NCBI GenBank assembly: GCA_018608405.1
Contig: JABAZP010000005.1
Location: 1-64,000, forward strand
Reading direction: 5' to 3'
Length of the DNA stretch: 64,000 nt
Source of the DNA: Flavobacteriales bacterium
Lineage (GTDB): Bacteria > Bacteroidota > Bacteroidia > Flavobacteriales_E > Vicingaceae
Shown: positions 34,115 to 51,162 of the stretch, piece by piece
Position numbering within the stretch: position 1 is the stretch's first letter
Layout: each line of letters begins with the position of its first letter
Notes under the pieces: generated by a model
Told to the model about the DNA's origin: nothing
The model's database searches: none
Seen by the model: only the letters and a program-made list of their open reading frames with translations
Made by a program: the position numbers and the translations under genes

Positions 34115-34686
34115 TTTAAATATCCAAAAATCGCAACGACAGTGTAAATTACAAATAGCAATGCTGTAAAATAAAGCTCCTTGTATAGATACATTCCTGC
34201 AGCTACAGCATCAACTACAATCCATATTAACCAGTTTTCAATTTGACATTTAACCACCATATATGTAGCAATAATTGCAAATACTGTGGTGAAGGCATCG
34301 AAGTACGCTAATTCTGCTGAAGTATAAAAATCTGCCATGGTTGCAGCAGTTAAAAATGTAATTGCGCCTCCGGCAATAGTGAAAACTAACCTTTTTGGAG
34401 ACGTTTGCTTTACTACAATAGTCGAAGTACTGGTTTGACTAGACCACGCGAACCAGCCGTAGAATGACATAATTACGTAGTAAGCATTAATGGCAACATC
34501 AAAATAATAGTTGAGCTTGAAGGTAATGTACACGTAAATAGCAGAGCTAATTAATCCGTACAAAAAGCACCAACGGTTTCCTTTCGAGGCTAAGTATATA
34601 TAGATCAATGCGGTAGCAACTGCAATAACTTCCAACGTATTAAATACCTCAAGTTCTGCTAGCAATTTTTGCCAAACACCGAGCAT
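34090..34686 (-). CDS. pnuC: PnuC-family vitamin transporter
   Basis: Inner-membrane facilitator of 198 residues with about seven hydrophobic helices. Family signatures visible: YGLISSAIYVYITFKLNYY, AYYVIMSFYGWFAWS and the C-terminal NWLIWIVVDAVAAGMYLYK. PnuC members carry nicotinamide riboside; PnuT members carry thiamin. The adjacent NadR-like kinase favours the first, the TPP-regulated receptor immediately downstream the second. Its stop lies inside the kinase gene and its start lies four bases from the GGGP synthase stop. Confidence 0.88.
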   Translation of the reverse strand: MLGVWQKLLAELEVFNTLEVIAVATALIYIYLASKGNRWCFLYGLISSAIYVYITFKLNYYFDVAINAYYVIMSFYGWFAWSSQTSTSTIVVKQTSPKRLVFTIAGGAITFLTAATMADFYTSAELAYFDAFTTVFAIIATYMVVKCQIENWLIWIVVDAVAAGMYLYKELYFTALLFVIYTVVAIFGYLKWKKLLPK

Positions 34687-34690
34687 ATAA

Positions 34691-35440
34691 TTAGTTGTTA
34701 ATCGAGTTCTTCAGGTTTCCTAGCTCAATCAAAAAGTTAGGGTCCTCTTCGATTCTATTGCCCACCACAACGATATCCGCTCCGGCTGTAAAAGCATCTT
34801 TGGCTTTCTTAATGGTATTAACACCACCACCAACGAACAATAGTTGCTCCGTGTAATCTTTAACTTTAGAAATCATTTCAGCTGGTACCGGTTTCTCTGC
34901 TCCACTTCCTCCGTCTAAGTAAATTATGTCCATTCCAAAATAAGTACCTGCCAAAGCTGTACTCGCAGCAATTTCAGGTTTATTCGCAGGTATGGGATTA
35001 GAATTACTCATGTACGATGCAGTCGTCTGCTTCCCCGAATCAACTAAAAGATAGGCCGTTGATATAACCTCTAAGTTTGTTTTTCTCAAATACGGAGCAG
35101 CTGTGATTTGTTGCCCTATAATCATCTCTGCATTTCTACTGGATAATAGAGAGAGGTATAAGATTCCGTCGGCTTGGGTAGATATTTGGGAGACGCTTCC
35201 AGGAAATAAAATGATTGGTAATGTGCTCTGAGATTTTATTGATTGAATGGTTTTTCCCAAATCACCATCGGTCAATAAACTCCCTCCAACTAAAATAAGA
35301 TCAACCACGGCCTCTTTTGCCTTTGCTAGTATGCTTTCTAAACTTGCTTCATCTACTTTGTCAGGATCAATTAGTAAAGCAATCATTTTATTGCCTTCTT
35401 TTTGCTGAGTCTTTAAAGATTGGTAGATTGGTTTCTCCAC
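34691..35440 (-). CDS. geranylgeranylglyceryl phosphate synthase family (PcrB/GGGPS)
   Basis: A TIM-barrel prenyltransferase of 249 residues that joins a prenyl diphosphate to sn-glycerol 1-phosphate. Signatures: MIALLIDPDK (residues about 19-28), VDLILVGGSLLTDG, PIILFPGSVSQIS, IYLDGGSGAEKPVP (phosphate and substrate site) and the end LLFVGGGVNTIKKAKDAFTAGADIVVVGNRIE. The family is archaeal in origin and is known in Bacteroidota (group II, hexameric), where the full lipid product is not settled. The GTG start at 35440 is chosen because residues 1-18 match the family N-terminus; an ATG lies 18 codons in. Confidence 0.9.
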   Translation of the reverse strand: MEKPIYQSLKTQQKEGNKMIALLIDPDKVDEASLESILAKAKEAVVDLILVGGSLLTDGDLGKTIQSIKSQSTLPIILFPGSVSQISTQADGILYLSLLSSRNAEMIIGQQITAAPYLRKTNLEVISTAYLLVDSGKQTTASYMSNSNPIPANKPEIAASTALAGTYFGMDIIYLDGGSGAEKPVPAEMISKVKDYTEQLLFVGGGVNTIKKAKDAFTAGADIVVVGNRIEEDPNFLIELGNLKNSINN

Positions 35441-35462
35441 GGTTTATTTTTCTGCTACAATA

Positions 35463-36092
35463 TTAATAATTCACACTGTAAGCCATCACATAATTCCCCA
35501 GCTTTCTAAATTCCATTTGTTGAACCTTTTCCTTTTTTTGTGTTCTTGTAATTCCAATTGCAGAGCCCATGCTTCCATCAAATTTGAACGCTTGCACTTC
35601 AAAGTTCTCTTTTAAAAAAGCATCCTTTTTCCCATAAATTTTAAATAAGGCCTCCTTAATGCTCCAGTAGCAAGTTAGCTCAGTTGGATTTTGTCCGGTA
35701 AGTCTTTGTTCTGTTTTATTCAAAAATTTAGACTTTATCCGCACAATCTTATCAGTTATAAATTGCAAATCTACTCCGGTTTCATATTTGTCGTCAATAG
35801 AAATCGCTACCCTCTCATTCGAATGAGAGATGCTTAAAAATGAATCGGAAAGTTTAAAAGTTGGCTTTCGATGTTCATCGTAAATGATATCTTCCTTTGC
35901 CGGCATGGTCTTACAAATGATTTCGCGAATGAACAGCCACTCTGCTTTTCTTTTGTCATTGCTGATGTTTTGTAAATGACTCATATCTACTCCCTTTTTA
36001 ACAAGAAAATGAAACATTTCTTCCATTCTATCGTATTCAACTGCTGCTGTATGAATAGAATTTGAAGGAGATATTTGAAAGCTTTCAAACAT
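35463..36092 (-). CDS. 4'-phosphopantetheinyl transferase
   Basis: Transfers the phosphopantetheine arm of CoA to carrier proteins. The ATG at 36092 gives about 209 residues; an in-frame GTG at 36116 adds eight residues but lies beside a TATTTTCG box and is less likely. Motifs: ISHSNERVAISIDDKYETGVDLQ (Mg-binding Asp in GVDLQ) and CYWSIKEALFKIYGKK, the W(S/T)xKEAxxK motif of Sfp-type enzymes. It is the first gene of the minus-strand run that continues with GGGP synthase, 22 bases away. Confidence 0.88.
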   Translation of the reverse strand: MFESFQISPSNSIHTAAVEYDRMEEMFHFLVKKGVDMSHLQNISNDKRKAEWLFIREIICKTMPAKEDIIYDEHRKPTFKLSDSFLSISHSNERVAISIDDKYETGVDLQFITDKIVRIKSKFLNKTEQRLTGQNPTELTCYWSIKEALFKIYGKKDAFLKENFEVQAFKFDGSMGSAIGITRTQKKEKVQQMEFRKLGNYVMAYSVNY

Positions 36093-36137
36093 ATCTTTTA
36101 TATAACTGTTTAACACGAAAATAGCATTATTTAATTT

Positions 36138-36149
36138 GGTAAATTTACC
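36138..36149. promoter_or_regulatory. 12-bp palindrome GGTAAATTTACC between divergent genes
   Basis: A perfect self-complementary 12-mer in the 57-81-base spacer between the phosphopantetheinyl transferase and ahcY starts. It could be an operator for either gene. A single copy carries little weight, and no second copy was noticed. Confidence 0.3.
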
Positions 36150-36173
36150 ATCCGAAAAGTAAAAAAATAAAAC

Positions 36174-37484
36174 ATGAGTACAAGTGTAGAATACTTACCG
36201 TATAAAGTTAAAGACATATCTTTAGCAGAATGGGGTAGAAAAGAAATTGAATTGGCAGAAGCAGAAATGCCTGGTTTAATGTCGTTAAGAGAAGAGTATA
36301 AAAACGAGCAGCCTCTAAAAGGAGCTAGAATTGCTGGTTGTCTTCACATGACTATTCAAACTGCAGTTTTAATTGAAACATTAACAGCTCTTGGGGCAGA
36401 GGTTACATGGTCTTCATGTAATATTTTCTCTACTCAAGATCAAGCTGCTGCTGCCATTGCTGCTGCAGGTGTTCCTGTATATGCGTGGAAAGGCATGACT
36501 GACGAAGAATTTGATTGGTGTATTGAGCAAACTATTTTCTTTGGTGAAGATAGAAAGCCTCTTAACATGATTTTAGACGATGGTGGTGATTTGACAAACA
36601 TGGTGTTTGATAATTACCCTGAATTAGTGGATGGCATCAGAGGATTGTCAGAGGAAACCACTACAGGTGTTCATAGATTATATGAGAGAGAGAAAAATGG
36701 CACATTAGTAATGCCTGCAATCAATGTAAATGATTCAGTGACAAAGTCAAAGTTTGATAACAAATATGGTTGTAAAGAATCATTAGTTGATTCGATAAGA
36801 AGAGCAACTGATATCATGATGGCAGGAAAAGTTGCCGTAGTAGCAGGTTACGGAGACGTTGGTAAAGGTTCTGCAGCATCTTTGAAAGGAGCAGGAGCAA
36901 GAGTTATCGTTACTGAGGTAGATCCAATTTGTGCACTACAAGCTGCAATGGACGGTTTTGAAGTGAAGAAAATGATCAATGCTGTTGAAGAAGTTGACAT
37001 TGTTGTTACTGCTACAGGAAATAAGGATATTATTTCTGAGGCGCATTTCAGAAAAATGAAAGACAAAGTTATCGTATGTAACATTGGACACTTCGATAAT
37101 GAAATTGATGTTTCTTTCTTAGATAACTCAGGAGCTGAAAAAGTTGAAATTAAGCCACAAGTTGACAAGTACAGATTAGACGGGAAAGACATCATATTAT
37201 TAGCGCAAGGTAGATTGGTGAATTTAGGTTGTGCTACGGGTCACCCTTCTTTTGTAATGTCAAATTCTTTTACGAACCAGACATTAGCTCAAATTGAACT
37301 TTGGAAGAATAGTGATAACTATGAGAATAAGGTTTACACTTTGCCAAAACATTTAGATGAAAAAGTTGCTAAACTTCACTTATCTAAAATTGGGGTTGAG
37401 TTAGAAGAGTTAAGACAAGACCAAGCAGAATATATTGGAGTAACTGTTGAAGGGCCATATAAGCCAGAGTATTACAGGTATTAA
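36174..37484 (+). CDS. ahcY: adenosylhomocysteinase
   Basis: NAD-dependent hydrolase that splits S-adenosylhomocysteine into adenosine and homocysteine, closing the methyl cycle in the cytosol. The 436-residue length is normal. Seen are [17 protein letters not shown], the [18 protein letters not shown] substrate region, [12 protein letters not shown] with the catalytic Lys and Asp, the NAD loop [13 protein letters not shown] starting at residue 225, [11 protein letters not shown], and the C-terminal ending YKPEYYRY with the conserved Lys and Tyr that close the neighbouring subunit's NAD site. A terminator hairpin follows. Confidence 0.98.
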
Positions 37485-37504
37485 TCCAAGCTCATTAATA
37501 AAGT

Positions 37505-37538
37505 AAAAGGCTATTGCAGAAATGCAGTAGCCTTTTTT
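37505..37538. terminator. terminator of ahcY (and of the convergent lipoprotein gene)
   Basis: AAAAGGCTA.TGCA / TGCA.TAGCCTTTT hairpin with loop GAAA and a T run at 37533-37538. It is about 20 bases after ahcY. The lipoprotein gene ends at 37537, so its stop codon overlaps the T run. Confidence 0.82.
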
Positions 37539-37983
37539 AGTTAGTTACGGTTAAGATAGGGTCGTTAAAGTTTGCAGTATATTCTTTTAATGGAAGGATT
37601 GCAGGAGGCTTGGAAACGGCGCCTGTGCTCAATAGGAAACTTGACCCACAACAGTTGTCAGTAGCTGTAAAACGATTTTGATCAACTGACACTAACCCGC
37701 ACGTGTTAGAAGGTTCAAACGTGCAATGTCTATCGTACGCTTTTATTTCGTCAGATGACACTCGATAAAGAATAATTCCCCTTGAGCCTCCAAAAACTTC
37801 CACTGACCCTCCGATAGTTTGAAGTTCTATGTATTCTGGTAAATTGATGTTGTATTGAAAATTCACTTGAACCAAGGGAATATTAGTGGCCTCATCGGAA
37901 TTGCAGGCAGGAAAGAAGAGAAGAGTTATGAATACGACAAAAAGTAGTTGGTTCTTTACAGGAAGTATTGTTATTTTCATCAT
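37537..37983 (-). CDS. lipoprotein with degenerate Rieske-like domain
   Basis: Small lipoprotein of about 148 residues. The start at 37983 (or 37980) gives a leader ending LLFFPAC with the lipidated Cys near residue 27; a TTG at 37998 adds five residues. After it the pattern resembles a Rieske fold: YDRHCTFEPSNTC, then DNCCGSSFLLSTGAVSKPPAIL and a final PLKEYTA. In a Rieske cluster site these segments should read CxH and CxxH; here the second His is Cys (NCCGS) and the first is displaced (RHC). Cluster binding is therefore doubtful. Outer-membrane or inner-membrane attached; function unknown. Confidence 0.65.
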   Translation of the reverse strand: MMKITILPVKNQLLFVVFITLLFFPACNSDEATNIPLVQVNFQYNINLPEYIELQTIGGSVEVFGGSRGIILYRVSSDEIKAYDRHCTFEPSNTCGLVSVDQNRFTATDNCCGSSFLLSTGAVSKPPAILPLKEYTANFNDPILTVTN

Positions 37984-38035
37984 CTTTAATTTTTTCAAAA
38001 CTTAACTACAATATTAGGGTGAAAATAAACGAAAA

Positions 38036-38338
38036 ATGAAAAAAAATATTATCCGAGGCGTCGTTTTCTTTTTTTTGTGTGTCATGGTTATGAATGCACA
38101 AGCTCAATCTCAGAAAAGAGTTGAAAAAACGGTCGAAAAGAGAAGCGAGCAACTAGAAAAAGATAAAGAAGCAAAAAAGAAGGAAGCGCGCAAACAAGAA
38201 GAGGCAAAAAGAAAAGCGCATATTGAAATGCAAACAAAAGCAGTTCAAAAAAGAATGAAAAAAACGAGGAGAAAATCCAAACGAAACAACGATAATAAAA
38301 AAGAATTTTTTGTAAAAAGATGGTTCAAGAGGCGATAA
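38036..38338 (+). CDS. short basic exported protein, unknown
   Basis: A 100-residue protein with a signal peptide (1-24, ending NAQAQ) and a mature part made almost wholly of Lys, Arg, Glu and Gln. It is a charged single helix (KEARKQEEAKRKAHIEMQ) that ends KEFFVKRWFKRR. Base use is AT-rich like the neighbours. No family was recognised, and the composition could fit a periplasmic RNA, LPS or peptidoglycan binder, but nothing shows this. The signal peptide and start (ATG 38036) argue for a real gene rather than a chance frame. Confidence 0.6.
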   Translation: MKKNIIRGVVFFFLCVMVMNAQAQSQKRVEKTVEKRSEQLEKDKEAKKKEARKQEEAKRKAHIEMQTKAVQKRMKKTRRKSKRNNDNKKEFFVKRWFKRR

Positions 38339-38389
38339 ATAAATGGAAAATAAAGAATTAAGAATTTAGTGTAAAGCCGCTGTTAAAAT

Positions 38390-38421
38390 TTGTTATTCTT
38401 TTTATTAAATGTATACCTTTA
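38390..38421 (+). promoter_or_regulatory. promoter of the receptor/surface module (TTG-N21-TACCTTTA)
   Basis: TTG at 38390-38392 and TACCTTTA at 38414-38421, 21 bases apart, one mismatch from the phylum consensus. It lies 47 bases before the ATG of the TonB-dependent receptor and probably drives all three genes up to the terminator at 47615. Confidence 0.6.
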
Positions 38422-38468
38422 CGGCCCTGTAGTTTTTTACAACGAAACGATAACATAAAATTTCTATT

Positions 38469-41400
38469 ATGCTAAGAAAATTACTTTTCACGCTAGCGAT
38501 AGCGTTGGGATTTGCGACCACTGTAAATGCCCAAGTAGGATCAGGAACCATTAAAGGTACTGTGATTGAAAAAGCCAACGGTGAGCCGGTGCCATTTGCG
38601 AATGTGGTACTGTTAAGAGGAACAGAGCAAATATTGGTAACTACTACTGATTTTGATGGGGTGTTTACCTTAAAGCCAATTCCACCTGGGACATATGATG
38701 TTCAGTTTTCTTACGTAGGGTTTACTCCTAGTAGAAAATCAGGTATTACTGTAACTTCAGGAAAGTTAAAAAAACTAGATGCTGAATTATCTAAGGGTGT
38801 GAATATTGAGGAGGTTCAAGTTTATGCTGAACCTATAATTGAGGTAGATCAGACAGAAATTGCTCGAAGTGTAGGTAGAAAAGAAATTACTCAAATGGCT
38901 GTTCGTAGTGTTGCAGATATTACAAAAGCTGCGGGTAATGGTATTACAGCAAGAGATAATGGTTCAGGAGCTAATAATGTTAGAGGACAACGTTCAGGTA
39001 GCTCTATTACCTTTGTTGATGGTATAAAAATTATCGGATCAACAAGTTTACCGAAGTCGGCTATTGAAGAGGTTTCTGTAAAGACCGGTGGAATATCGGC
39101 GCAATATGGTGATGTAACAGGTGCTGTAACAACTGTAACAACTAGAGGTGCTTTTACGGAATACTTCGGAAGTGCTGAGGTATTGTCATCAGGATTTAAG
39201 ACAGGGGAAACAACTTCTTTTGGTTTAGATAAATGGGGCTATAACTTATTTGGATTTGCATTAGGAGGGCCAATTATTAAGAAAAAAAATAAAGATGGAG
39301 AAGTAACCTCGCCATTTGGCTTCTTAGTAACTGGTGAAATTAGACATGCTTTGAGTGGGCAAAGTGTTACACCAATCTACAAACCAAAGGATAATGTTGA
39401 GCAAGAAATAAGAAACAACCCGCTTATTTTTCAAGAAGGGAATAATGGAGTAGTTCAAAGGGCACAATTTCTAACAAGAGATGATTTTGAAGAAATAGAC
39501 TTCAGGCTGAACGATGATAATTTAAGTCTTGCGGTTAATGGGAAGTTTGATGTTAAGTTAACCGACTTAAGTTCTCTTTCTTTTGGAGGTACCTACAATT
39601 ATGCTAAAGGCAACAATTGGAATAGAGCCTTTTCATTATTCAACTATGAGAATAATACTCAATCATTAGCTACGGATTTTAGGTTCTACGGAAGGTATGT
39701 TCAAAGATTTGAGAATGCGAAGGAAGATGCAAACACTAAACAGGAAGATAAGTCTTTAATTAAGAATGCATTTTTTTCTATACAAGCTGATTTCTCTAGA
39801 GCAAACAGATTAACTGAGGATAGAAACCACGGGAGTGACTTCTTTAAATATGGATATTTAGGCAGGTTTACTGCAAATACTGCGCTGTCATATTCTGATA
39901 ACAACTTCAACCCTGTAACATTGGATAATGGGACAGAATACAGAGGTAGATTTTTAACAGCCTTTGATAACCCTATTTCTTACGACTATACAGCGTCAAA
40001 CATCAATCCAATTCTAGCGAACTATACTAGTAATTATTACGACTTTTTTAAGCCAGGAGATCCTAGGTATGCAACAGCAGTTGCAGTAGAGGGAAATGGT
40101 GGAATTATTAATGGAGGAACAGTTATTGGTAATGTCTATAATCTTTGGACTTCCGCAGGTGCTGTGAGCAATGGTTATAGTAAGTTAGAAAATGATCAAA
40201 TAAGACTAAGTGGTAGAGGTTCAGCTGATATAGGTGACCATGCAATTGTTTTAGGGTTTGAATACGAGCAGAGAATAGAGCGTTTTTATCAGATGAATCC
40301 AAGAGATTTATGGGATTTAGGACGGCTTTCAGTGAACAGTCACATTTTACAGATTGATTCAAATAACTACTCAATCGATTATGCGTCCCCAAATCCAATT
40401 GATCCTACCGTTACTTTTGAGAGAAGATACGATGAAGCAAATAGGAGTTACTTTGCATATAACATGAGAAACGCCTTAGGCTTAGATCCAAGTGGTATTG
40501 ATTTTATTGATTTTGATTCATACGATATTGATCTTTATAACATGACTTATTTTGCAGCGGACCAATTAATAAATCCTGCAAATAACATTAACTTACTTTA
40601 CAGAGGATACGATTACAAGGGAAAGAAGTTAAATTCTTCTCCTTCTCTAAACGATTTCTTCAATGAAGAGAATGAGTTAGGGTTTAAAACAAGACCAGTT
40701 CCAGCTTATCAGCCGGTTTATATTGCGGGTTACATTGAGGATAAATTTGCCTTTGATGACTTGATATTTAGAATAGGTGTTCGTTTAGATCGATTTGATG
40801 CAAATCAACCTGTATTGAAGGATCCGTTCTCACTATTTCCAACCAGAGATGTAGCTTACGCTAAAAGCCAAGGTTTAGGAGAAACCCCAAGTAATATACA
40901 GGATAACTTTATTGTGTATGTTAATGATATCGAGAATCCTAATTCAAACGGAATTGTTGGTTATCGAAACCCTGAAACAAATGAATTCTTTAATGCGCAA
41001 GGTGTGCTTTTAAATGACCCATCTGTTTTGCAAGCTGGTTCTAGCATCGCACCATGGTTAGTTGATCCTTCTAGAACTTCAACATCCGCAGATATGAATA
41101 CAGAGTCTTTTGAAGATTACGAACCACAGTATACATTAATGCCAAGAATCTCATTTTCATTCCCAATTTCTGATGAAGCTACATTTTTCGCTAACTATGA
41201 TATCTTGACTAGACGTCCTTCCGGGGAGAACGGTTTAGAGCCACTAGATTTGATTTACATTACGAATCACAACAGAATTATAAATAATCCAAACTTGAAG
41301 CCATCTAAAACTATTTCTTATGAAATTGGTTTCAAGCAAAAAGTAGGTAGTAGTTCTGCATTAACATTGTCTTCTTTCTACAGAGAACAAAGAGATGAGA

Positions 41401-42221
41401 TTCAAGTTAGAAGATTAATTGGTGCGTTTCCAGAAGATTATTTGACTTATGATAATTTGGACTTTGGAACGGTTAAAGGTTTTACCGTCAATTACGAAAT
41501 GAGAAGAACAAAGAACCTATCATTAAGGTTGAATTATACTATTCAATTTGCTGAAGGGACAGGTTCAGGTTCAACAACTGCCTTGAATTTAGTTAATTCA
41601 AATCAACCAAACCTAAGAACAATTTTCCCATACAGTTATGATCAACGTCATCAGATAGTATCTACCTTAGATTACAGATATGGTAGTGGAACGGGATACA
41701 ATGGTCCTAGAGTTGGTGGAAAAAATATTCTTCAAAATACAGGACTTAACGTTGTGTTTATAGCTGGTTCAGGTCAACCGTTTACTCAAAGGTCTTTAGC
41801 TGGAGCAAATGAATTGCTCACGGGTTCTCGAACGCCACAACCTGTTGAGGGAGATATAAATGGTTCACGTTTGCCATGGACCGTTCGAGTTGATGCTAGA
41901 TTAGATAAATCTTTTGACATTAATTGGGGAGCAGATACCGAAGCGAATAAAGAAGCTTGGAAACAGGGTAAAAAGCAATCGAACTTAAATGTATATCTGC
42001 AAGTATTGAACGTGTTAAATGCTCAAAACATACAGCGTGTTTACGGTTTTACGGGAAATGCTGACGATGATGGGTACTTAAATGCTGCTCAGTTTCAGAA
42101 TGAAATTAGACAAGAAGTAAATGAGCAAGCATTTAGAGATCAATATAGCTTACGATTGCAGAACCCAGGTAATTTCGAATTGCCAAGAAGAATTAGATTA
42201 GGAGCTCAATTAAGTTTCTAA
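38469..42221 (+). CDS. TonB-dependent-receptor-like protein with carboxypeptidase-regulatory domain
   Basis: Large outer-membrane protein of 1250 residues. A signal peptide (1-22, ending TVNAQ) is followed by a CarboxypepD-regulatory-like beta-sandwich (about 25-110: GTIKGTVIEKANGEPVPFANV, YDVQFSYVGFTPS). Then a plug-like domain (about 120-235) has NGSGANNVRGQRSGSSITFVDGI and PKSAIEEVSVKTGGISAQYGDVTGAV, then a barrel of roughly 1000 residues ending LGAQLSF. The protein is longer than the usual 750-1000. It starts a tight cluster with the 1421-residue protein (21 bases apart) and a PorV-like protein. A substrate cannot be named; no SusD is present. Confidence 0.85.
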   Translation: MLRKLLFTLAIALGFATTVNAQVGSGTIKGTVIEKANGEPVPFANVVLLRGTEQILVTTTDFDGVFTLKPIPPGTYDVQFSYVGFTPSRKSGITVTSGKLKKLDAELSKGVNIEEVQVYAEPIIEVDQTEIARSVGRKEITQMAVRSVADITKAAGNGITARDNGSGANNVRGQRSGSSITFVDGIKIIGSTSLPKSAIEEVSVKTGGISAQYGDVTGAVTTVTTRGAFTEYFGSAEVLSSGFKTGETTSFGLDKWGYNLFGFALGGPIIKKKNKDGEVTSPFGFLVTGEIRHALSGQSVTPIYKPKDNVEQEIRNNPLIFQEGNNGVVQRAQFLTRDDFEEIDFRLNDDNLSLAVNGKFDVKLTDLSSLSFGGTYNYAKGNNWNRAFSLFNYENNTQSLATDFRFYGRYVQRFENAKEDANTKQEDKSLIKNAFFSIQADFSRANRLTEDRNHGSDFFKYGYLGRFTANTALSYSDNNFNPVTLDNGTEYRGRFLTAFDNPISYDYTASNINPILANYTSNYYDFFKPGDPRYATAVAVEGNGGIINGGTVIGNVYNLWTSAGAVSNGYSKLENDQIRLSGRGSADIGDHAIVLGFEYEQRIERFYQMNPRDLWDLGRLSVNSHILQIDSNNYSIDYASPNPIDPTVTFERRYDEANRSYFAYNMRNALGLDPSGIDFIDFDSYDIDLYNMTYFAADQLINPANNINLLYRGYDYKGKKLNSSPSLNDFFNEENELGFKTRPVPAYQPVYIAGYIEDKFAFDDLIFRIGVRLDRFDANQPVLKDPFSLFPTRDVAYAKSQGLGETPSNIQDNFIVYVNDIENPNSNGIVGYRNPETNEFFNAQGVLLNDPSVLQAGSSIAPWLVDPSRTSTSADMNTESFEDYEPQYTLMPRISFSFPISDEATFFANYDILTRRPSGENGLEPLDLIYITNHNRIINNPNLKPSKTISYEIGFKQKVGSSSALTLSSFYREQRDEIQVRRLIGAFPEDYLTYDNLDFGTVKGFTVNYEMRRTKNLSLRLNYTIQFAEGTGSGSTTALNLVNSNQPNLRTIFPYSYDQRHQIVSTLDYRYGSGTGYNGPRVGGKNILQNTGLNVVFIAGSGQPFTQRSLAGANELLTGSRTPQPVEGDINGSRLPWTVRVDARLDKSFDINWGADTEANKEAWKQGKKQSNLNVYLQVLNVLNAQNIQRVYGFTGNADDDGYLNAAQFQNEIRQEVNEQAFRDQYSLRLQNPGNFELPRRIRLGAQLSF

Positions 42222-42242
42222 GGTTTTTAAAAGAGATAGATT

Positions 42243-45200
42243 ATGAGAAAGTTAAAAATTTCAATTTTGATGGGTCTTTTGGCGCCAATGATCGCTTTTG
42301 GAGCGAGTGCTGAAAAAGACAAGAAGAAGCCAAGACAGCAAGTTAATACAGCGGCTGGTTGCGCTCCTGCGAGTAGAATAATATTTCTTGAATTCAACAA
42401 TGTCCGTACTCGAGTAGAGGCAGGTGGTATTTGGTGGCAAGATAGAGCAAACGGTGTTGCTGATTACGAGGTTCCTAAGGGTTCTAATAGTTTTTCTATA
42501 TACGCAGGTGGTCTATGGTTAGCAGGTACAGATGTTAATGGGCAGTTAAAAGCTGCAGTTAGTAAATTTGGTCAAGGAGTAGATTATTATACAGGACCAC
42601 TTGACGTTGTAGGTACTGCTGAAATCAACGATGTTACCTGTGATGAATATGATCGCTTTTTCGAATTGACTAGAGCAGAGGTAGCGCTATTTAATGCTTA
42701 CAATCAGGCAGTAATTAAAGGAACTGCTTTAGAAGATTTTCCTGACTATCAAATTCCTACAGCTATTTTAGAATGGCCTGGTAACGGTGATGTAACTCCG
42801 GGCGTAGATCAAGATTTTAGACTTGCTCCATATATGAATGTAGCTGGTGATGAATCATACGAGCCTGAATTAGGAGATTATCCTTTTTATGATTTAGTAG
42901 GTGATGTAGATTGTAGAGAAAATAGGGAAGATCGATCAATTAGTGGAAGACGTCCATTGTTTGGAGACCAGACGTATTGGTGGATTTTTAATGACAAAGG
43001 TAATCTTCATACTGAATCTAATGCACCTTCTATTGGAATGGAGATTCACGGTCAAGCATTTGCTTTTGCAACAAACGATGAAATCAACAACATGACGTTT
43101 TATAACTTTGAGTTGATTAACCGGTCAACTTTTACTTTAACTAATACTTTCTTTGCAAGTTTTGTAGATCCTGATGTAGGACTTTCTTCTGATGACTATG
43201 TTGGTTGTGACGTAGCTAGAGGTTTAGGGTATGCTTTTAATGGTGTTGAGGATGACATTGGACAAGGTGGCCAAACTGGCTATGGAGCCAATCCTCCATC
43301 AATCGGAATTGATTTTTTCGAAGGACCTTATCAAGATGCGGACGGTATTAACAATCCTGTAGGCGTTGGTCCAGGAGAAGCACTCAATGGGTTGGGTTAT
43401 TTCGATCCAAATGCAAGAGAGCCGGACTTAGTTCCAGATAACGAAAGGTTTGGAATGAGACGTTTTGTATATTATAACATTGGAACGGCTCCAAACGGAG
43501 ATCCTGAATTAGCTGTTCATTATTACAACTATATGAGAGGGATTTGGAAAAATGGTAGAAGAATGCGTCATGGTGGGAATGGTTTTAACACAGCTGGTGT
43601 TGAAGATATCCCAACTGACTTCATGTTCCCCGGAACAAGTGACCCATTACATTGGGGAACAACAGATGAAAATGGATTTACAACAATTCCAACGAACACA
43701 AATTGGTCAGAAGATAATCCTGGTGGAGGCGAGCCTCAAAATGCCGTGGGAGATAGAAGATTTTTACAGTCAGCAGGACCATTTACTTTGAGACCAGGAA
43801 ACGTAAATGATATTACGGTAGGAGTAGTATTTGCTCAAGCTCAAAACGGTGGACGTTTAGCGTCTGTTGAGGATATGTTTACTGCTGATGATAAGGCTCA
43901 AGCCTTGTTTGATAATTGTTTCCAAGTATTAAACGGACCCGACGCTCCTGACGTCACTGTTCAAGAATTGGATAAAGAACTCATTTTCTATCTTTCAAAC
44001 CCTGATGTTTCTAATAATGCTGGAGAGAATTATGAAGAAAGAGATCCTAATATTGTGACTCCAGAATATTTAGCCAACCTAACAAACCCTGTATTTTTAG
44101 ATGATAGGTATAGATTCCAAGGGTATCAAGTTTATCAAGCGGCTGGACCGGGAATATCTATTAATGATATAGGAGACTTGAGTAAAGTAAGATTGGTATT
44201 CCAATGTGATGTAAAGGATAACGTGGCTAGTTTAACGAACTTTACATTCGATCGAGGATTGAATGCAAACATTCCTGAAAGAATGGTGATAGCAGAGAAT
44301 GAAGGAATTCAAAGAAGCTTTTCTATTAATCAAGATGCCTTTGCTGTTGGCGATGCAGCCTTAATCAATTATAAGACATATTATTACATAGCGATAGCTT
44401 ATGGGTATAATGAGTTTAAACCATATATACAGGGTGTTGCGCCAGACTTAAACGACACAACTCTTCCGTTGTCGGGCGCGTTTGATGGGCAAACAACTCC
44501 ATACATAAAAAGTAGAAGGTCTGCAACCGGCGGTGAAGTTGCTACGTTTACAGCAATACCTGCACCACCGAAATTCGAAAATGGAGGGACAATTGTGAAC
44601 TCAAGTTTCGGAGAAGGTATAGAAATTACAAGACTGCAAGGAGCCGGAAACGGCGGGAATGCCTTAAGAATTTCGCGTGAGTCTGTTGAAAATATATTAC
44701 AAGATAAAGCATGGGACTCAGAAGATAGTACAGTGAATGAAATTGACTATGTACTCGGAGAAGGTCCATTTAGTGTTAGTGTTGTTGACCCACTTAATAT
44801 TGTAGATGGGAACTACTACGTTCAATTTATCGATAGTTTAGATAACCAGCGAGTAACAGATAATACCTATTGGAGAATTTGGAGAGAAGGTGGAATAGAT
44901 ACTGTATACTCTGATAAGTCAATAGGGTTTTTAAATCAACAACTTTTATTAAGCCCAAATTGGGGACTGGCCATTACAATAACCAATGGCATAGAACCAG
45001 GCTCAAGAATTGAAGGGACTGATAACGGATTTATTTCAGCATCCATTGAATATGGAGATCCTGAGCGCCAGTGGTTATCGGGTATTCCTGATAATGATTT
45101 GGAAGGCCCATTTAACTGGATTTTATCCGGAACAGGAGAGCAGTCTCCTTCAGGATTTTTCTTTGATTATGCTGTTTCTGGAAACTTTATTGATCCAGAT

Positions 45201-46508
45201 CAAAACTATGAAAGCATTTTAGATGGTACCATCGCTCCTTATCGATTGGTAAGGTATGAGTTAGGTTTGGGTGACCCTGCTGCTTTAAATGCACCTGCAA
45301 GGGGAAAAGCTGATGTTGAGGGTTCGCCTTTGAATAAACTGATGTCCATCCAATTAGTAATAACAAATGACAAGTCAAAATGGACGAGGTGTCCTGTAAT
45401 TGAGACGAAGGACGATGGTTTAGCTGACCCAAATAATCCAACGGTAAATCTTCATAATAAGAACCAAGTTAAAGTTACAAAACTATCTGTAGATAAGGAT
45501 GGTAACCCAGTTGATACAGCAGGACTTGGTAATTTGACAATAGCTGAAATTACAGATACATTAAGAGCGATGGGGGACACTTTAGAGGATGATGCAGCAT
45601 TTATCAACGCTTTCGGTATGGGTTGGTTCCCAGGTTATGTGATAAATAAGGAAACAGGAGATCGTTTGAATATGGCTTTTGGAGAAGATACCAGGTATAG
45701 CTTCAATAATGGAGATGATATGTTGTGGAATCCTACTTCTACAGTTATTGAGGGAATTGATCCACAGTTTATTAATCAGATATGGGGAGGAAAGCACTTT
45801 ATTTATATCTTCAGAGAAACTGAGGGTAATGAACGTGATTCTGTTCTATACTCTCGATTCAATGCAAACATGCCAGTTTATGACTATGGAGAACAGGCTC
45901 GAGATCTTTTAAGCCTTCAAGGTAGCGGGCTGAATGGTTTAAGGACTAGGCTAGGATGGCAGAGTTGTTCGTGGGTGTCTGTGCCGTTGTTGCAAATTGG
46001 AGAGACCTTGTTATCAAGTGATGTTCGTATAGATGTGAACGTTAGTAAGCCTTTTGTTGCTAATCAGTCAAGTATCAGAACAGGAAACACTTCTTCTAAT
46101 TTGGCACTTGAAAATGAAGGTGTTCCCGTTTATAAATTTAGCACAGCTGGTAAAGGAACATTAAAAAGTCAAACTTCATTGCTTAAGAGTGCACTAGAAG
46201 AAGTGAATGTTGTTCCTAATCCATATTACTCTCAAAGTGGTTATGAGTTCGACCAACTCGATAATACGGTTAAGTTTACAAACCTACCTGAGAATTGTAC
46301 CATAACTATCTACAATACAAACGGAACTTTAATAAGGAGATATTTTAAGGCAAGTCCTGATAAATATTTAGATTGGGATTTAACAAACCAGGTGGGAGTT
46401 CCAATCGCCAGTGGTGTATACATCATCCATATTGAGGTCCCTAATGTAGGAGAGCGAATATTGAAATGGTTCGGTACAATTAGACCAGCTGATTTTAACA
46501 ATTTCTAA
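42243..46508 (+). CDS. giant exported surface protein with unusual C-terminus
   Basis: An exported protein of 1421 residues with a signal peptide (about 1-23). The N-terminal part has an ordered pattern: GGIWW (61-65), YEVPKGS (75-81) and AGGLWLAGTD (88-97). The middle is beta-rich and contains YWWIFNDKG. The C-terminal 110 residues look like a FlgD/T9SS-type beta-sandwich (VVPNPYYSQSGYEFDQL, ITIYNTNGTLIRRY, YLDWDLTNQVGVPIASGVY) but end GERILKWFGTIRPADFNNF instead of the short basic end of a canonical type A signal. It lies between a TonB-dependent-like barrel and a PorV-like protein, three bases from the latter. Probably a surface protein or barrel partner; no enzyme motif was seen. Confidence 0.75.
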   Translation: MRKLKISILMGLLAPMIAFGASAEKDKKKPRQQVNTAAGCAPASRIIFLEFNNVRTRVEAGGIWWQDRANGVADYEVPKGSNSFSIYAGGLWLAGTDVNGQLKAAVSKFGQGVDYYTGPLDVVGTAEINDVTCDEYDRFFELTRAEVALFNAYNQAVIKGTALEDFPDYQIPTAILEWPGNGDVTPGVDQDFRLAPYMNVAGDESYEPELGDYPFYDLVGDVDCRENREDRSISGRRPLFGDQTYWWIFNDKGNLHTESNAPSIGMEIHGQAFAFATNDEINNMTFYNFELINRSTFTLTNTFFASFVDPDVGLSSDDYVGCDVARGLGYAFNGVEDDIGQGGQTGYGANPPSIGIDFFEGPYQDADGINNPVGVGPGEALNGLGYFDPNAREPDLVPDNERFGMRRFVYYNIGTAPNGDPELAVHYYNYMRGIWKNGRRMRHGGNGFNTAGVEDIPTDFMFPGTSDPLHWGTTDENGFTTIPTNTNWSEDNPGGGEPQNAVGDRRFLQSAGPFTLRPGNVNDITVGVVFAQAQNGGRLASVEDMFTADDKAQALFDNCFQVLNGPDAPDVTVQELDKELIFYLSNPDVSNNAGENYEERDPNIVTPEYLANLTNPVFLDDRYRFQGYQVYQAAGPGISINDIGDLSKVRLVFQCDVKDNVASLTNFTFDRGLNANIPERMVIAENEGIQRSFSINQDAFAVGDAALINYKTYYYIAIAYGYNEFKPYIQGVAPDLNDTTLPLSGAFDGQTTPYIKSRRSATGGEVATFTAIPAPPKFENGGTIVNSSFGEGIEITRLQGAGNGGNALRISRESVENILQDKAWDSEDSTVNEIDYVLGEGPFSVSVVDPLNIVDGNYYVQFIDSLDNQRVTDNTYWRIWREGGIDTVYSDKSIGFLNQQLLLSPNWGLAITITNGIEPGSRIEGTDNGFISASIEYGDPERQWLSGIPDNDLEGPFNWILSGTGEQSPSGFFFDYAVSGNFIDPDQNYESILDGTIAPYRLVRYELGLGDPAALNAPARGKADVEGSPLNKLMSIQLVITNDKSKWTRCPVIETKDDGLADPNNPTVNLHNKNQVKVTKLSVDKDGNPVDTAGLGNLTIAEITDTLRAMGDTLEDDAAFINAFGMGWFPGYVINKETGDRLNMAFGEDTRYSFNNGDDMLWNPTSTVIEGIDPQFINQIWGGKHFIYIFRETEGNERDSVLYSRFNANMPVYDYGEQARDLLSLQGSGLNGLRTRLGWQSCSWVSVPLLQIGETLLSSDVRIDVNVSKPFVANQSSIRTGNTSSNLALENEGVPVYKFSTAGKGTLKSQTSLLKSALEEVNVVPNPYYSQSGYEFDQLDNTVKFTNLPENCTITIYNTNGTLIRRYFKASPDKYLDWDLTNQVGVPIASGVYIIHIEVPNVGERILKWFGTIRPADFNNF

Positions 46509-46511
46509 AAA

Positions 46512-47591
46512 ATGAATATGAAAAATTTAACTTACACATTAGCCTTGGCATTGGCCTTTATTTCATTCGATGCTTTTTCTGGAAATGAGGATAGAGCGGG
46601 TGAAGCCGGAGCTTCAGAGTTGTTAATAAATCCATGGGCAAGAAGTTCAGGTTGGGGAGGTGCAAACACGGCTAGTGCAAGAGGTTTGGAAGCTATGAAC
46701 TTGAATATCTCAGGTTTAGCTTTCACGAAAAATACTGAGGTGTTGTTTTCTAACACTAGCTGGTTAAGTGGTACAGACATTAATTTGTTGAGTTTCGGGT
46801 TTGCCAAAAAATTGGGAGATGCTGGTGTAATGGGGTTAACCGTGACTCGAATGAGTTTTGGTGAAATTCAAATTACCACTGCAGACTTACCGGATGGCGG
46901 CATAGGAAATTATGAACCAAATTATTTGAACATTGGATTCGCTTATTCGAAGCAATTCTCCAATAGTATTAGTGGGGGTTTAGTTGTTCGTATTATTACG
47001 GAGTCCACTGCAGATGTAAACGCTAGCGGCGTTTCAATTGATGCGGGAGTTAGTTATAAGACAGCAAAGTACGATGCATTTAAATTTGGCATAACGCTTA
47101 GAAATGTAGGACCAACCACAAGTTATCGTGGTAACGGTTTGTCAATTCAAGCAGATAAGCTTAATACAGATCAGACACTTACGTTCCAGAGAAGAACAAG
47201 TGATTTTGAATTACCTTCTCTAGTGAACATAGGAGCTTCTTATGATTTCTTTTTAACGGAAGTTGAGGAAAATGAAGACGGTTCATTCATGGCTGAACAT
47301 AGAGTAACTGCAAGTGGTACATTCACTTCTAACTCGTTTACTAAAGATCAGATACGTGTAGGTGGCGAATATGCATTCCAAAACAAATTTATGGTTAGAG
47401 CCGGTTACGTATTCGAAACTGATGCTACTGATGAAGTAGAGTCTAGAACAACGTCTGTAGGTCCAACCATGGGTGCAACTCTTGAAATTCCAACAAATAA
47501 AACAGGTTCTACTATTGGTTTAGATTATTCATACCGATTTACAAGAACTTTTGATGGAACTCACGCCATTGGATTAAGGCTGACATTCTAA
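46512..47591 (+). CDS. PorV/PorQ-family outer-membrane protein
   Basis: A 359-residue outer-membrane barrel with a signal peptide (about 1-23, ending AFSG). Features of the PorV family: ASELLINPWARSSGWGGANTASARGLEAMNLN near the N-terminus and repeated amphipathic strands such as YLNIGFAYSKQFSNSISGGL and RAGYVFETDA, ending HAIGLRLTF. PorV of the T9SS carries cargo from the SprA translocon to the attachment machinery; stand-alone PorV-like proteins beside large secreted proteins probably act as dedicated partners. This one starts three bases after its large neighbour, which supports a dedicated role. It is not near porU or sprA. Confidence 0.82.
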   Translation: MNMKNLTYTLALALAFISFDAFSGNEDRAGEAGASELLINPWARSSGWGGANTASARGLEAMNLNISGLAFTKNTEVLFSNTSWLSGTDINLLSFGFAKKLGDAGVMGLTVTRMSFGEIQITTADLPDGGIGNYEPNYLNIGFAYSKQFSNSISGGLVVRIITESTADVNASGVSIDAGVSYKTAKYDAFKFGITLRNVGPTTSYRGNGLSIQADKLNTDQTLTFQRRTSDFELPSLVNIGASYDFFLTEVEENEDGSFMAEHRVTASGTFTSNSFTKDQIRVGGEYAFQNKFMVRAGYVFETDATDEVESRTTSVGPTMGATLEIPTNKTGSTIGLDYSYRFTRTFDGTHAIGLRLTF

Positions 47592-47614
47592 ATTTTAAAA
47601 AAATCTTACATTTG

Positions 47615-47645
47615 AAAAGAGAACTTCGAAAGGGGTTCTCTTTTT
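47615..47645 (+). terminator. terminator of the three-gene surface module
   Basis: AAAAGAGAAC / GTTCTCTTTTT stem around TTCGAAAGGG, followed by T residues. It lies 24 bases after the PorV-like gene. A TACATTTG box (47607-47614) immediately before it might instead begin the greA transcript, in which case the hairpin would be in the greA leader. Confidence 0.75.
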
Positions 47646-47672
47646 GAATTGTATATACTTAGTACATAGGAA

Positions 47673-48146
47673 ATGAGTCAAATAAGTTATTTCACGGAAG
47701 AAGGGTTACAAAAGGTGATTGATGAATTGAATCACTTAAGAAAAGTTGAACGACCGTCTATTTCTGCACAAATTGCAGAAGCTAGAGACAAGGGTGACTT
47801 ATCTGAAAATGCAGAATATGACGCCGCTAAAGAGGCTCAGGGTCTGTTGGAATTGAAGATTAGCAAATTGGAGACCCTTGTTGCAAATTCGAGAGTTGTA
47901 GACGAGTCAGAGTTGGACACAACGAAGGTTCTGATATTGTCTAAAGTAAAAATCAAGAATTTAGCTAACGGATCAGAAATGCAATACACCATCGTTTCAG
48001 AAAAAGAAGCAAATATGGCTGAAAAAAGAATTTCTGTAGAATCTCCAATTGCGAAAGGTTTACTTGGGAAGAAGGTGGGGGATGTTGCAGAAGTTATAGT
48101 TCCGTCAGGCTCAATGAAGTTTGAAGTGATTGATATTAGTAGATAA
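47673..48146 (+). CDS. greA: transcription elongation factor GreA
   Basis: Rescues backtracked RNA polymerase by stimulating transcript cleavage. The 157-residue protein has the N-terminal coiled-coil with RDKGDLSENAEYDAAKEAQ, whose acidic tip carries the two catalytic acids, and the C-terminal FKBP-like globular domain with SPIAKGLLGKKVGDVAEV. Its stop overlaps the start of the HIT gene by one base (TAATG), so the two are translationally coupled. Confidence 0.97.
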   Translation: MSQISYFTEEGLQKVIDELNHLRKVERPSISAQIAEARDKGDLSENAEYDAAKEAQGLLELKISKLETLVANSRVVDESELDTTKVLILSKVKIKNLANGSEMQYTIVSEKEANMAEKRISVESPIAKGLLGKKVGDVAEVIVPSGSMKFEVIDISR

Positions 48147-48532
48147 TGGCAACAATATTCTCAAAAATAATTGACGGAGACATTCCTAGTTTCAAGATTG
48201 CAGAGAATGATAGTTTCTTGGCATTTTTGGACATTCAGCCACTAGTATTAGGTCACACGCTGGTCATTCCAAAAAAAGAAACAAATTATATATTCGATAT
48301 GGAAAGCGACGAATACGCAGAAATGTGGAAGTTCGCTCAAGTTGTTGCTAAAAAAATAAAAGAGAAAGTAGACTGTAAACGAATTGGCATTGCAGTGATT
48401 GGTTTGGAAGTAGCTCATGCTCATATTCACCTAGTTCCAATAAATAACGTTAACGATATTAATTTTGCTGCACCAAAAATGGATGTATCCATGGAAGTGC
48501 TACAAGAAATAGCAGACAAGATTAATTCTTAA
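48146..48532 (+). CDS. HIT-family protein (HinT-like)
   Basis: A 128-residue nucleotide phosphoramidase or hydrolase of the histidine triad family. The N-terminal IFSKIIDGDIPSFKIAEND and FLDIQPLVLGHTLVIPKK are family signatures, and the triad is in EVAHAHIHLVPIN (HxHxH, residues about 91-95). It follows greA with a one-base overlap. The tail overlaps the convergent ruvC by four bases (TTAA). Confidence 0.93.
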   Translation: MATIFSKIIDGDIPSFKIAENDSFLAFLDIQPLVLGHTLVIPKKETNYIFDMESDEYAEMWKFAQVVAKKIKEKVDCKRIGIAVIGLEVAHAHIHLVPINNVNDINFAAPKMDVSMEVLQEIADKINS

Positions 48533-49098
48533 GCCTTTCTTCCAGGATTGTCTTTTAAGAAAGAACCCCAACCCGAGTAAGATTTTTTATTTCCCACCTG
48601 TGCATTTCCTTGAAAATGGTGACAAATTGCGACTGCTAATGCATCAGTAGCATCTAAATAATTGGGGTCTTCTTTGTATTGTGTGATAGATTTTACCATA
48701 GCAGCAACCTGTTGTTTAGAGGCAGCTCCTTTGCCTGTAATTGCTTTCTTAACTTTGGTAGGCATGTATTCAGTTGCAGGCACTTCTCTGGTCATAGAAG
48801 CTGCCATTGCAACCCCTTGGGCTCTTCCCAACTTTAGCATCGACTGAGCATTCTTTCCATAGAAAGGCGCCTCAATGGCCATTTCGTCAACCTTGAATTC
48901 GTCAATTAGTGTAACAGTTCGTTCAAAAATCCTTTGTAGCCTAAGTGCATGATCTCCTAATTTCGCCAACTGAATTACGCCCATCGCTAGTAATTTTATT
49001 TCGCCCTTGAAGACAGAAATAATTCCATAACCCATGATTGAAGTACCTGGATCGATACCCAAAATAATCTTTTCTACTTCTTTAACTTTAGCGCTCAT
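48529..49098 (-). CDS. ruvC: Holliday junction resolvase RuvC
   Basis: Endodeoxyribonuclease that cuts Holliday junctions with RuvAB. From ATG 49098 the protein has 189 residues; an in-frame ATG at 49110 adds four. The catalytic acids are seen in IILGIDPGTSIMGYG (Asp 16), MAIEAPFYGKNAQ (Glu near 75), and DATDALAVAICHH (two Asp near 145-148). The start codon shares bases with the presumed TTG start of the divergent membrane-protein gene. Confidence 0.96.
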   Translation of the reverse strand: MSAKVKEVEKIILGIDPGTSIMGYGIISVFKGEIKLLAMGVIQLAKLGDHALRLQRIFERTVTLIDEFKVDEMAIEAPFYGKNAQSMLKLGRAQGVAMAASMTREVPATEYMPTKVKKAITGKGAASKQQVAAMVKSITQYKEDPNYLDATDALAVAICHHFQGNAQVGNKKSYSGWGSFLKDNPGRKA

Positions 49099-50060
49099 TG
49101 GAAAAGACAAAGCTATATAAAATAGGTAATATTCTGGTTACCGTAATTATTGTATTCTTGAGCATCTACTACCTGAAGCTAGCATTGGATTCTAAGGTAG
49201 ACATTTTAGATTGGGAAAGTCTTTCTGAGGTCATCATATCGAATTTTCTAATTTTTATGACAGTTGTAGCGCTTGTTCCCGTGAATTGGGGGATAGAAGC
49301 CCTAAAGTGGAAATGGGCGCTAATCAATACGCAAACTTTGTCTTGGTCCTCGTCCATAAAGTCTGTGTTAACAGGGGTAACCCTATCAATCGCAACTCCA
49401 AACGGAGTAGGAGATTATGGAGGTAGAATGATAAATATCGATAAGGATAAGCGGAGTCAAGCGCTTTATTATAACGGTTTTTTGTCAATGAGTCAATATC
49501 TTACAACTGTTGTTTTTGGTTTGCTGGGTTTATCAAAAATAAGTGAACAGTTAAGCTTTCCTATGCACCGCTTACCGTTGTTATTTTTGATTTTTGCATT
49601 GATAGGAATTTGTACTTGGTTTTATTTTAGAACTAAATTCCGATTTGATCTTCTTAAAACATTCTTATTAAAATACAATCAAAAGATATCATTTGAGATT
49701 TCTCATGGCCTTAGGGTTAAGGTTTTAATGTTAAGTATGTTGCGGTACTTCGTTTTTTCTTTTCAGTATGTGTTGTTAGTTCGCTGCTTTATCCCTGGTA
49801 TAGATTTAATTACAACATTTAGCTCTATTGCATTCATTTTTCTGTTAACCGCTGTTATTCCAACCGGTTGGTTGTCGGGTGCACTAGTAAGAGGGTCGGT
49901 GAGTTTTTTTGTCTTTCAAAGTGTCGTAAATGGAGGAGAGTTTGGTTTGATTGCTTCTTCCTTACTTTGGGTTATTAATTTGCTTTTTCCGGCAATGGTT
50001 GGTTTATATTTTTTAAAGTCATTCAAGCTGTTCCCAATCATTAATCCTGAGAACGTATGA
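49098..50060 (+). CDS. LPG-synthase-TM/AglD-type integral membrane protein
   Basis: A 320-residue protein with about eight hydrophobic helices and the family pattern of the UPF0104/lysylphosphatidylglycerol synthetase transmembrane domain (VNWGIEALKWKWAL, SIATPNGVGDYGGRM, AVIPTGWLSGALVRGS), which includes flippases and undecaprenyl-linked glycan export proteins. There is no ATG near the N-terminus, so a TTG start at 49098 is assumed; the first helix then begins at residue 10. It overlaps the GT2 gene by four bases (ATGA), so it may export the glycolipid that GT2 makes. Confidence 0.78.
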   Translation: MEKTKLYKIGNILVTVIIVFLSIYYLKLALDSKVDILDWESLSEVIISNFLIFMTVVALVPVNWGIEALKWKWALINTQTLSWSSSIKSVLTGVTLSIATPNGVGDYGGRMINIDKDKRSQALYYNGFLSMSQYLTTVVFGLLGLSKISEQLSFPMHRLPLLFLIFALIGICTWFYFRTKFRFDLLKTFLLKYNQKISFEISHGLRVKVLMLSMLRYFVFSFQYVLLVRCFIPGIDLITTFSSIAFIFLLTAVIPTGWLSGALVRGSVSFFVFQSVVNGGEFGLIASSLLWVINLLFPAMVGLYFLKSFKLFPIINPENV

Positions 50061-51157
50061 TCGGATTTATCTTCTTGTTGTATGCAATTATGATGGGGTG
50101 GTTAATTTTAGCGAAGAAACCCGAGCGCGAGGTTGCAATTAACGCCGCACAAGAGCCAGTATCATTAATTGTCGTTTATCGTAATGAGAAAAATAATTTA
50201 GAACGATTAATCAAAGGGGTGGAAAGTCAGTCAATTGACAAGGCTAAATTGGAATTAATTCTAGTAAATGATCACTCAACTGATGGAAGCTTTGAATTGA
50301 TTCAGGAGCTTGTTAAACTTTCTAGTCTAACGTTACGGCATCTTTACTTAGAAGGGGAATTCGGTAAAAAAGCCGGAGTTTGCTTAGGGGTTCAACAGGC
50401 AAGCCATGAGTTAATTCTTTGTACTGATGCAGACTGTGATTTACCTCCTAATTGGGCAATAACTATGATTCGGCCATTTGTCAATAAAGAAATTCAGATG
50501 GTTTTGGGCGCAGTGCGATTAAGTGGTTCTTCAGGATGGTTTAAGAAGCTGCAAAAGATAGAGTTCAGCACTCTAATGGCTATTACTCTGCTAACCTGTC
50601 GAAGAGAACGCGCTATTCTTTCAAATGGTGCGAACTACGCTTTTAGAAAAGGGGCCTTTGAAGAAAGCAAGGCATATACAAACAACTTAAAAATTAACAC
50701 AGGGGATGATGTTTTTTTACTTCATGCTTTAAAAAGAAAGTTTGACAAGAGTTGTATCGTGTTTTCGGAGAAAGAGTCTTCAGTAGTTGATACTCCTGCT
50801 AAAACGAGTTATACTTCATTTTTTGAGCAACGAATTAGGTGGGCTTCAAAGTCTAAAAATTACAAAGACCGAGATACTGTGAAGCTTGGAACAATAATAT
50901 TTGCAGCAAACTTGTCTATTTTATGGGTGTTTACAGGAACTTTATTGCAATTGTATTCACTGAAGTTTTTAATTGGTTGTTTTATGTTTAAGTGGGTGCT
51001 TGATTTGCTGCTTGTGCAGCAGCTACCATTTTTTCTTCGACCATTATCGATGGTAAAGTGGACATTTATTTTATCAATTTTATATCCGCTCTACTCTGTA
51101 GGAATTGCTTTGCTATCTTTGTTTTATCGGCCACAATGGAAAGGGCGTAAAATCTAA
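50057..51157 (+). CDS. family 2 glycosyltransferase, membrane-bound
   Basis: A 366-residue GT-A transferase. An N-terminal helix (about 2-18) anchors it, and the catalytic domain has VSLIVVYRNEKNNLERLI, LILVNDHSTDGS with the nucleotide-sugar Asp, ILCTDADCDLPPNW with a DxD motif, and GDDVFLLHALK then EQRIRWASK (a QxxRW-like motif with ERRIRW pattern). Two or three C-terminal helices follow. QxxRW-like motifs are typical of processive or dolichol-type transferases. It overlaps the AglD-type gene upstream and precedes the ABC permease by five bases. Confidence 0.85.
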   Translation: MIGFIFLLYAIMMGWLILAKKPEREVAINAAQEPVSLIVVYRNEKNNLERLIKGVESQSIDKAKLELILVNDHSTDGSFELIQELVKLSSLTLRHLYLEGEFGKKAGVCLGVQQASHELILCTDADCDLPPNWAITMIRPFVNKEIQMVLGAVRLSGSSGWFKKLQKIEFSTLMAITLLTCRRERAILSNGANYAFRKGAFEESKAYTNNLKINTGDDVFLLHALKRKFDKSCIVFSEKESSVVDTPAKTSYTSFFEQRIRWASKSKNYKDRDTVKLGTIIFAANLSILWVFTGTLLQLYSLKFLIGCFMFKWVLDLLLVQQLPFFLRPLSMVKWTFILSILYPLYSVGIALLSLFYRPQWKGRKI

Positions 51158-51162
51158 GCAGT

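Follow-up and report, generated by a model that had tools for sequence, protein, structure and literature searches.

A widespread three-gene locus of Bacteroidota pairs a giant protein bearing a type IX sorting domain with a PorV-family protein and a TonB-dependent-receptor-like barrel

A three-gene locus (hereafter the trio) encoding a TonB-dependent-receptor-like outer-membrane barrel, a giant exported protein and a PorV-family protein recurs in a large part of the Bacteroidota. The reading that best explains it, and that we hold with slightly better than even confidence, is a TonB-transporter surface complex in which the type IX secretion system (T9SS) exports the giant to act as extracellular partner, with a dedicated PorV paralogue as its holder. 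Export of the giant by the T9SS and its pairing with the PorV-like protein are well supported, whereas its assembly into a complex with the barrel and the uptake of a ligand are what we infer.

Organization and transcription of the locus

The window, i.e. the whole stretch of 64,000 nucleotides that was analysed, carries the trio as three open reading frames (ORFs) on the forward strand: gene 1 (38469..42221, 1250 aa), gene 2 (42243..46508, 1421 aa) and gene 3 (46512..47591, 359 aa). The ORF coordinates confirm the gene order, the strand and the intergenic gaps of 21 and 3 bases given in the initial annotation. A putative promoter is located at about 38380..38440 on the same strand. The upstream block GTTAARRTTTGTTATT..ATTAAATGTATAYCTTTAC (about 38380-38435), which includes TTTG and TATAYCTTTAC, is kept in 6 genomes, with the TTTG ... 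TATACCTTTA-type block nearly invariant. We take this block to resemble the Bacteroidota −33/−7 promoter pattern; a sigma-70 promoter scan, of a type that does not cover this pattern, gave no excess. Gene 3 is followed by an intrinsic terminator on the forward strand (47610..47649; −19.5 kcal/mol, z −6.3), consisting of a hairpin and a T run, and the hairpin is kept in the same 6 genomes. Transcription of the three genes as a single unit, from one promoter to one terminator as originally proposed, is thus plausible.

The flanking genes, presumably adenosylhomocysteinase-like upstream and GreA-like and HIT-like downstream to judge from the look of their sequences, are unrelated to the trio and are swapped in other lineages while the trio persists. 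Two small exported proteins are encoded on the upstream side: a very basic one of 100 aa immediately ahead of the trio (38036-38338), which is a conserved neighbour in neighbouring genera, and one of 150 aa on the opposite strand (37537-37998), which adjoins the trio in neighbouring genera too.

The giant protein

Sequence comparison and two AlphaFold models divide the gene 2 product into a head (residues about 43-565), an fn3-like segment (about 566-730), a variable middle and a C-terminal T9SS-type domain. A Sec-type signal-like N-terminus is recognizable by eye. A lipobox-like pattern occurs in only 7 of 90 homologues and is not seen in the window giant. Across lineages, the giants measure about 1,000-1,540 aa; one gene copy (genome G042, contig C1:518693-522768) is broken by stop codons. 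The initial annotation had noted an ordered N-terminal pattern (GGIWW, YEVPKGS, AGGLWLAGTD) and no enzyme motif. No Pfam domain of the window giant exceeds the cut-off, but the C-terminus holds a T9SS-type domain that had been overlooked.

This domain spans residues about 1310-1421 (46170..46505, forward strand). The last ~110 residues match the PorZ model with an E value of 1e-8 and also match the PorU model, while the score against TIGR04183, 18.8 bits, lies under the curated cut-off of 23. When 19 diverse members of the family were compared with the profiles, 18 hit the PorZ C-terminal domain and 13 hit TIGR04183 (E below 0.01). The AlphaFold model of the C-terminal half (m2590ac874312, mean pLDDT 81.6) ends in a seven-strand sandwich with a short C-terminal helix, i.e. 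the seven-strand Ig-like fold of sorting domains. In a Foldseek search of the PDB, the top match of this domain is PorZ (5m11, E 9e-6), with RemZ in the SprA-PorV translocon (8gl8), PorU (6za2) and the RgpB C-terminal domain (7pq4) among the lower-ranked T9SS matches. Lys1408 is invariant (30/30 giants) and may be equivalent to the highly conserved lysine through which RemZ touches PorV (PMC10994853). All giants run roughly 8-13 residues past the end of the PorZ domain into a conserved tail, e.g. RPxDLNxF in close relatives. The giant therefore ends in a divergent, type A-like T9SS sorting domain; no resemblance to PorZ was found in the rest of the protein.

The head was modelled separately (m3efcd3635c24, mean pLDDT 81.5). 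Its Foldseek matches are GH15, GH94, GH116 and similar enzymes, extending over ~350-560 columns at TM values of about 0.15-0.26. They most likely reflect the beta-sandwich of glycosidases and phosphorylases, and a catalytic role for the head was rejected on these grounds; sugar binding is weakly hinted at by the model. A search of a viral structure library yielded no useful match. The same genome encodes a 555-aa paralogue of the head at a separate locus (contig C4, about 36678-38345; L002, L033), whose C-terminal domain is a canonical type A sorting domain and which is classed as type A T9SS cargo.

The PorV-family protein

The gene 3 product was assigned to the PorV family from its profile match, its position in a tree and an N-terminal motif. 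It passes the PorV_fam model NF033709 (149.3 bits, cut-off 90) and scores 80, 72 and 41 bits against the equivalog models for PorV, PorQ and PorV2 (NF033710, NF033711 and NF052325), whose cut-offs are 250, 220 and 325. A tree of 56 PorV-family members unites the trio proteins in a single clade (SH-aLRT 100) and sets them off from core PorV (99) and from PorQ (99). The conserved N-terminal motif of the gene 3 product is GNxDRxGxAGAxxLL; the trio proteins have it in common roughly as DRxGxAGAxxLL, and it becomes looser in the most distant lineages.

The genome from which the window derives encodes core PorV with PorU, PorQ, PorV2 with PorU2, and SprA, all at other sites, which bears out the earlier placement of the PorV-like gene outside a T9SS core locus. 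The trio carriers tested likewise possess a core-like PorV elsewhere in the genome. PorV-family matches number 4 to 16 per genome tested; four genomes (G075, G284, G217 and G404) have 10 to 16 matches each, which suggests many dedicated shuttles beyond model organisms.

Conservation of the trio in Bacteroidota

The initial annotation had placed the same trio in other environmental Bacteroidota, and a genome survey bears out its recurrence in the phylum. In a sample of 392 Bacteroidota genomes, 111 contain both the giant and the trio-type PorV, 3 the giant only, 1 the PorV only and 277 neither; both proteins thus occur together in 111 of the 115 genomes that have either. The corresponding Fisher p value (2e-93) is descriptive, as shared ancestry is ignored. 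The giant is found in about 29% of the sampled genomes (114), in 31 families. This count comes from a stricter search; a looser search of the phylum gave 184 genomes, many of which matched in no more than the C-terminal domain.

The pairing is also seen in synteny. Among 95 listed full-length giants, 87 are directly followed by the trio-type PorV gene, and the order barrel-giant-PorV is kept in 20/20 loci of other families and in 20/20 loci of further families, i.e. 40/40. In the second set, the barrel is cut by the contig end in one locus. The PorV-like gene of L091 and the trio of L087, missed by ORF calling, are present by six-frame scan, and the PorV-like gene of L096 is also present, a start overlap having mimicked its absence. 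Within the window's own family, the full order is found in 16 of 19 loci, the exceptions being two extra giant copies and one locus at a contig end. For named public genomes, 69 loci have both flanks readable, and 63 of these hold the trio (one counted with its barrel 1 kb upstream); in the remainder, five giants stand without both partners and one further giant is without PorV. Extra giants without the partners include L048 and L049. Nine of ten family genomes searched contain one trio-type PorV each, and in two of them the trio itself was found intact. The nine include four genomes with extra or split giant copies (G041, G015, G013 and G016), in which this PorV is located elsewhere in the genome. 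Taken together, the association of the trio is far beyond local coincidence, and the separate monophyletic PorV clade, the genome counts and the adjacency of the two genes all support a dedicated shuttle.

Several variants of the locus were observed. Tandem or repeated trio modules occur in G375 (L254, with two adjacent barrel-giant pairs) and on contig C46 of G059. In one distant-family group (L092, L093, L094, L098, L099 and L100), the PorV-like gene is followed by a gene encoding 680-735 aa, and the products examined, those of L094, L098 and L100, contain cytochrome-c-like haem domains and TPR repeats. The genome of the window itself has a second locus (L198; contig C37, 3000-22000), in which a 982-aa TonB-dependent barrel precedes a PorV-like protein that clusters in the tree with its counterparts from two related genomes. 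Ahead of this barrel are encoded two proteins (709 and 734 aa) with T9SS-type C-terminal domains, one of them above the Pfam cut-off, and the locus is flanked by lipoprotein-like genes.

Conservation of gene order could in principle reflect no more than shared regulation, if the giant were a common type of adhesin or surface-coat protein, exported with a shuttle of its own, and the receptor were co-transcribed without any physical complex. The existence of giants without neighbours and a conserved middle region without enzyme domain, as would suit a structural protein, fit this explanation. However, the barrel comes first, in the same order and with short spacing, in all 40 loci of other families even though the flanks change. 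Such constancy is not easily accounted for unless the genes are functionally linked, and we consider mere co-transcription unlikely.

SprA is present in 114/114 giant-bearing genomes and in 319 of the 392 sampled genomes overall. Because the giant has a T9SS sorting domain and all of its carriers have SprA, the general T9SS is the simplest export route, and the matches to PorZ, type A and PorU profiles, the PorZ-like fold and the type A domain of the 555-aa head paralogue likewise support the giant as T9SS cargo. The same observations raise the prospect that the trio is an accessory module of the T9SS itself, in which a PorZ-like giant on a PorQ-like barrel would help to process or anchor other cargo, while the TonB-like barrel would supply a substrate such as a part of lipopolysaccharide. 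The C-terminal domain is indeed closest to PorZ in both sequence and fold, the giant is strictly confined to SprA-bearing genomes, and its conservation is deep. Yet 278 of the 392 genomes lack the giant, far more than lack SprA, hence it is not a general part of the T9SS. Moreover, the window genome is already equipped with PorU, PorV, PorQ, PorV2 and PorU2, and the match to PorZ is limited to the C-terminal domain. A role in attachment or maturation of other cargo is therefore quite unlikely.

The TonB-dependent-receptor-like barrel

The gene 1 product has a signal peptide recognized by eye and matches PF13620, PF13715 (CarboxypepD_reg), PF07715 (Plug) and PF00593 (TonB_dep_Rec_b-barrel) above the Pfam cut-offs, in agreement with the carboxypeptidase-regulatory domain and plug assigned initially. 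Its plug and barrel motifs are conserved phylum-wide, from the window's family out to distant families; a conserved stretch, EVQVYAEPII, which may include a TonB box, precedes the plug, and the barrel ends in phenylalanine, as do 85 of 90 homologues. Relatives in the most distant families measure 935 to about 1,070 aa; the barrel of the window, once called oversized, is thus long but not extraordinary. It matches no SusC model in a profile search. The absence of a SusD partner, also noted at first, stands: no SusD-like lipoprotein is seen in the ORF list for 34000-52000, and a domain search found no SusD domain in the giant.

Since the conserved plug is retained, the barrel is more likely a transporter than an export channel. 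This bears on the mechanism first suggested for the locus, an apparatus dedicated to secretion or to a surface layer, with the PorV-like protein delivering the giant to the receptor-like barrel. On that reading, the TonB-like barrel would be a channel that exports or assembles the giant. Three exported proteins encoded in one operon and the known role of PorV-like proteins as shuttles (PMC10202324) would suit it, but with a T9SS sorting domain on the giant and SprA in all carriers there is no need for a separate exporter, and plug and carboxypeptidase-regulatory domains are typical of importers. We regard such an apparatus as very unlikely, and an independent secretion system was rejected on the T9SS domain and SprA. 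As to a surface-layer role as such, the analysis turned up nothing in its favour and nothing against it. A complex like the Bacteroidota BAM, in which FadL-like BamG, compared there with PorV, is joined by surface lipoproteins (PMC12578637, PMC12611786), is set apart by its published descriptions, as its partners differ from those of the trio.

Comparison with known systems

The trio shares features with three types of surface system. Like SusCD-type systems (SusC-SusD, RagAB, BtuB-BtuG), it combines a barrel of more than 900 aa, carrying a carboxypeptidase-regulatory-like domain and a plug, with one large, conserved partner that, in the trio, is probably co-transcribed and surface-exposed. 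Unlike in those systems, the place of a SusD-family lipoprotein is taken by a protein of ~1,000-1,540 aa that ends in a T9SS sorting domain, there is a third gene, for a PorV-family barrel, and the TonB barrel falls outside the SusC models.

In PorU-PorV and PorZ-PorQ, a cognate PorV-family barrel holds the sorting domain (PMC10202324). The trio resembles these pairs in that a PorV-family partner goes with a large exported protein whose C-terminal domain is type A-like, PorZ being the closest fold, and the earlier proposal of delivery of the giant by the PorV-like protein fits this known pairing. It differs in its separate PorV clade, in the TonB-dependent barrel within the locus and in the extra conserved tail on the domain; neither a sortase nor a PorZ propeller was found.

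Type B domains, in turn, are held by cognate PorP/SprF barrels (PMC9143113, PMC12618676). In SprB-SprF and Fjoh_3952-Fjoh_3951, as in the trio, the cargo gene is immediately followed by that of its own shuttle, and the cargo there is retained at the surface (PMC9143113, PMC12618676). In the trio, however, a type A-like domain is combined with a putative shuttle from the PorV family instead of PorP/SprF. All type A domains have been stated to be recognized by PorV (PMC12618676); with a shuttle of its own, the trio would be an exception.

Proposed mechanism and significance

In the TonB-transporter surface complex that we favour, the giant would enter the periplasm via its Sec signal. Its type A-like C-terminal domain would then take it across the outer membrane by way of SprA, the translocon of the general T9SS. 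The PorV-like protein would receive the sorting domain from the translocon and keep it bound and uncleaved, in the manner of PorQ with PorZ. Pairing of the two proteins rests on their co-occurrence and synteny, from which their binding is predicted. The giant would thereby be fixed beside the TonB-like barrel as a ligand-capturing or gating partner, in the place that SusD takes in SusCD, and a ligand would be taken up through the barrel in a TonB-driven manner. The gene order kept in all 40 loci read from other families, together with the conserved plug, supports the barrel as a partner, and the second locus of the same genome (L198), with its TonB barrel, PorV-like gene and sorting-domain proteins, adds to this support. 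Counting against this reading are the sub-threshold TIGR04183 score of the window giant, the extra C-terminal tail beyond the end of PorZ, the giants without partners, the weakness of the head's resemblance to glycosidases and phosphorylases, and the published statement on PorV and type A domains (PMC12618676), which the reading would qualify.

A search of the open-access literature found no description of the trio, which seems previously undescribed. Tentatively, and with a little less than even confidence, we propose that it represents a class of TonB-dependent surface machines spread over the whole phylum, with a T9SS-delivered extracellular subunit, and a dedicated PorV paralogue as its holder, in place of SusD-type lipoproteins. 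If so, T9SS targeting would follow a second general rule, that of type A-like domains with cognate PorV-family shuttles, and nutrient uptake and the T9SS would be linked in one complex.

The trio also offers a testable answer to the question of how sorting-domain proteins remain uncleaved at the surface, and it would give a set of large uncharacterized proteins a role in a defined complex, with their location and partners predicted. Should the proposed mechanism be right, type A-like sorting domains can have PorV-family shuttles of their own, contrary to the current statement that all of them use PorV, and TonB-dependent uptake and type IX secretion, both hallmarks of the Bacteroidota, would be joined in one machine.
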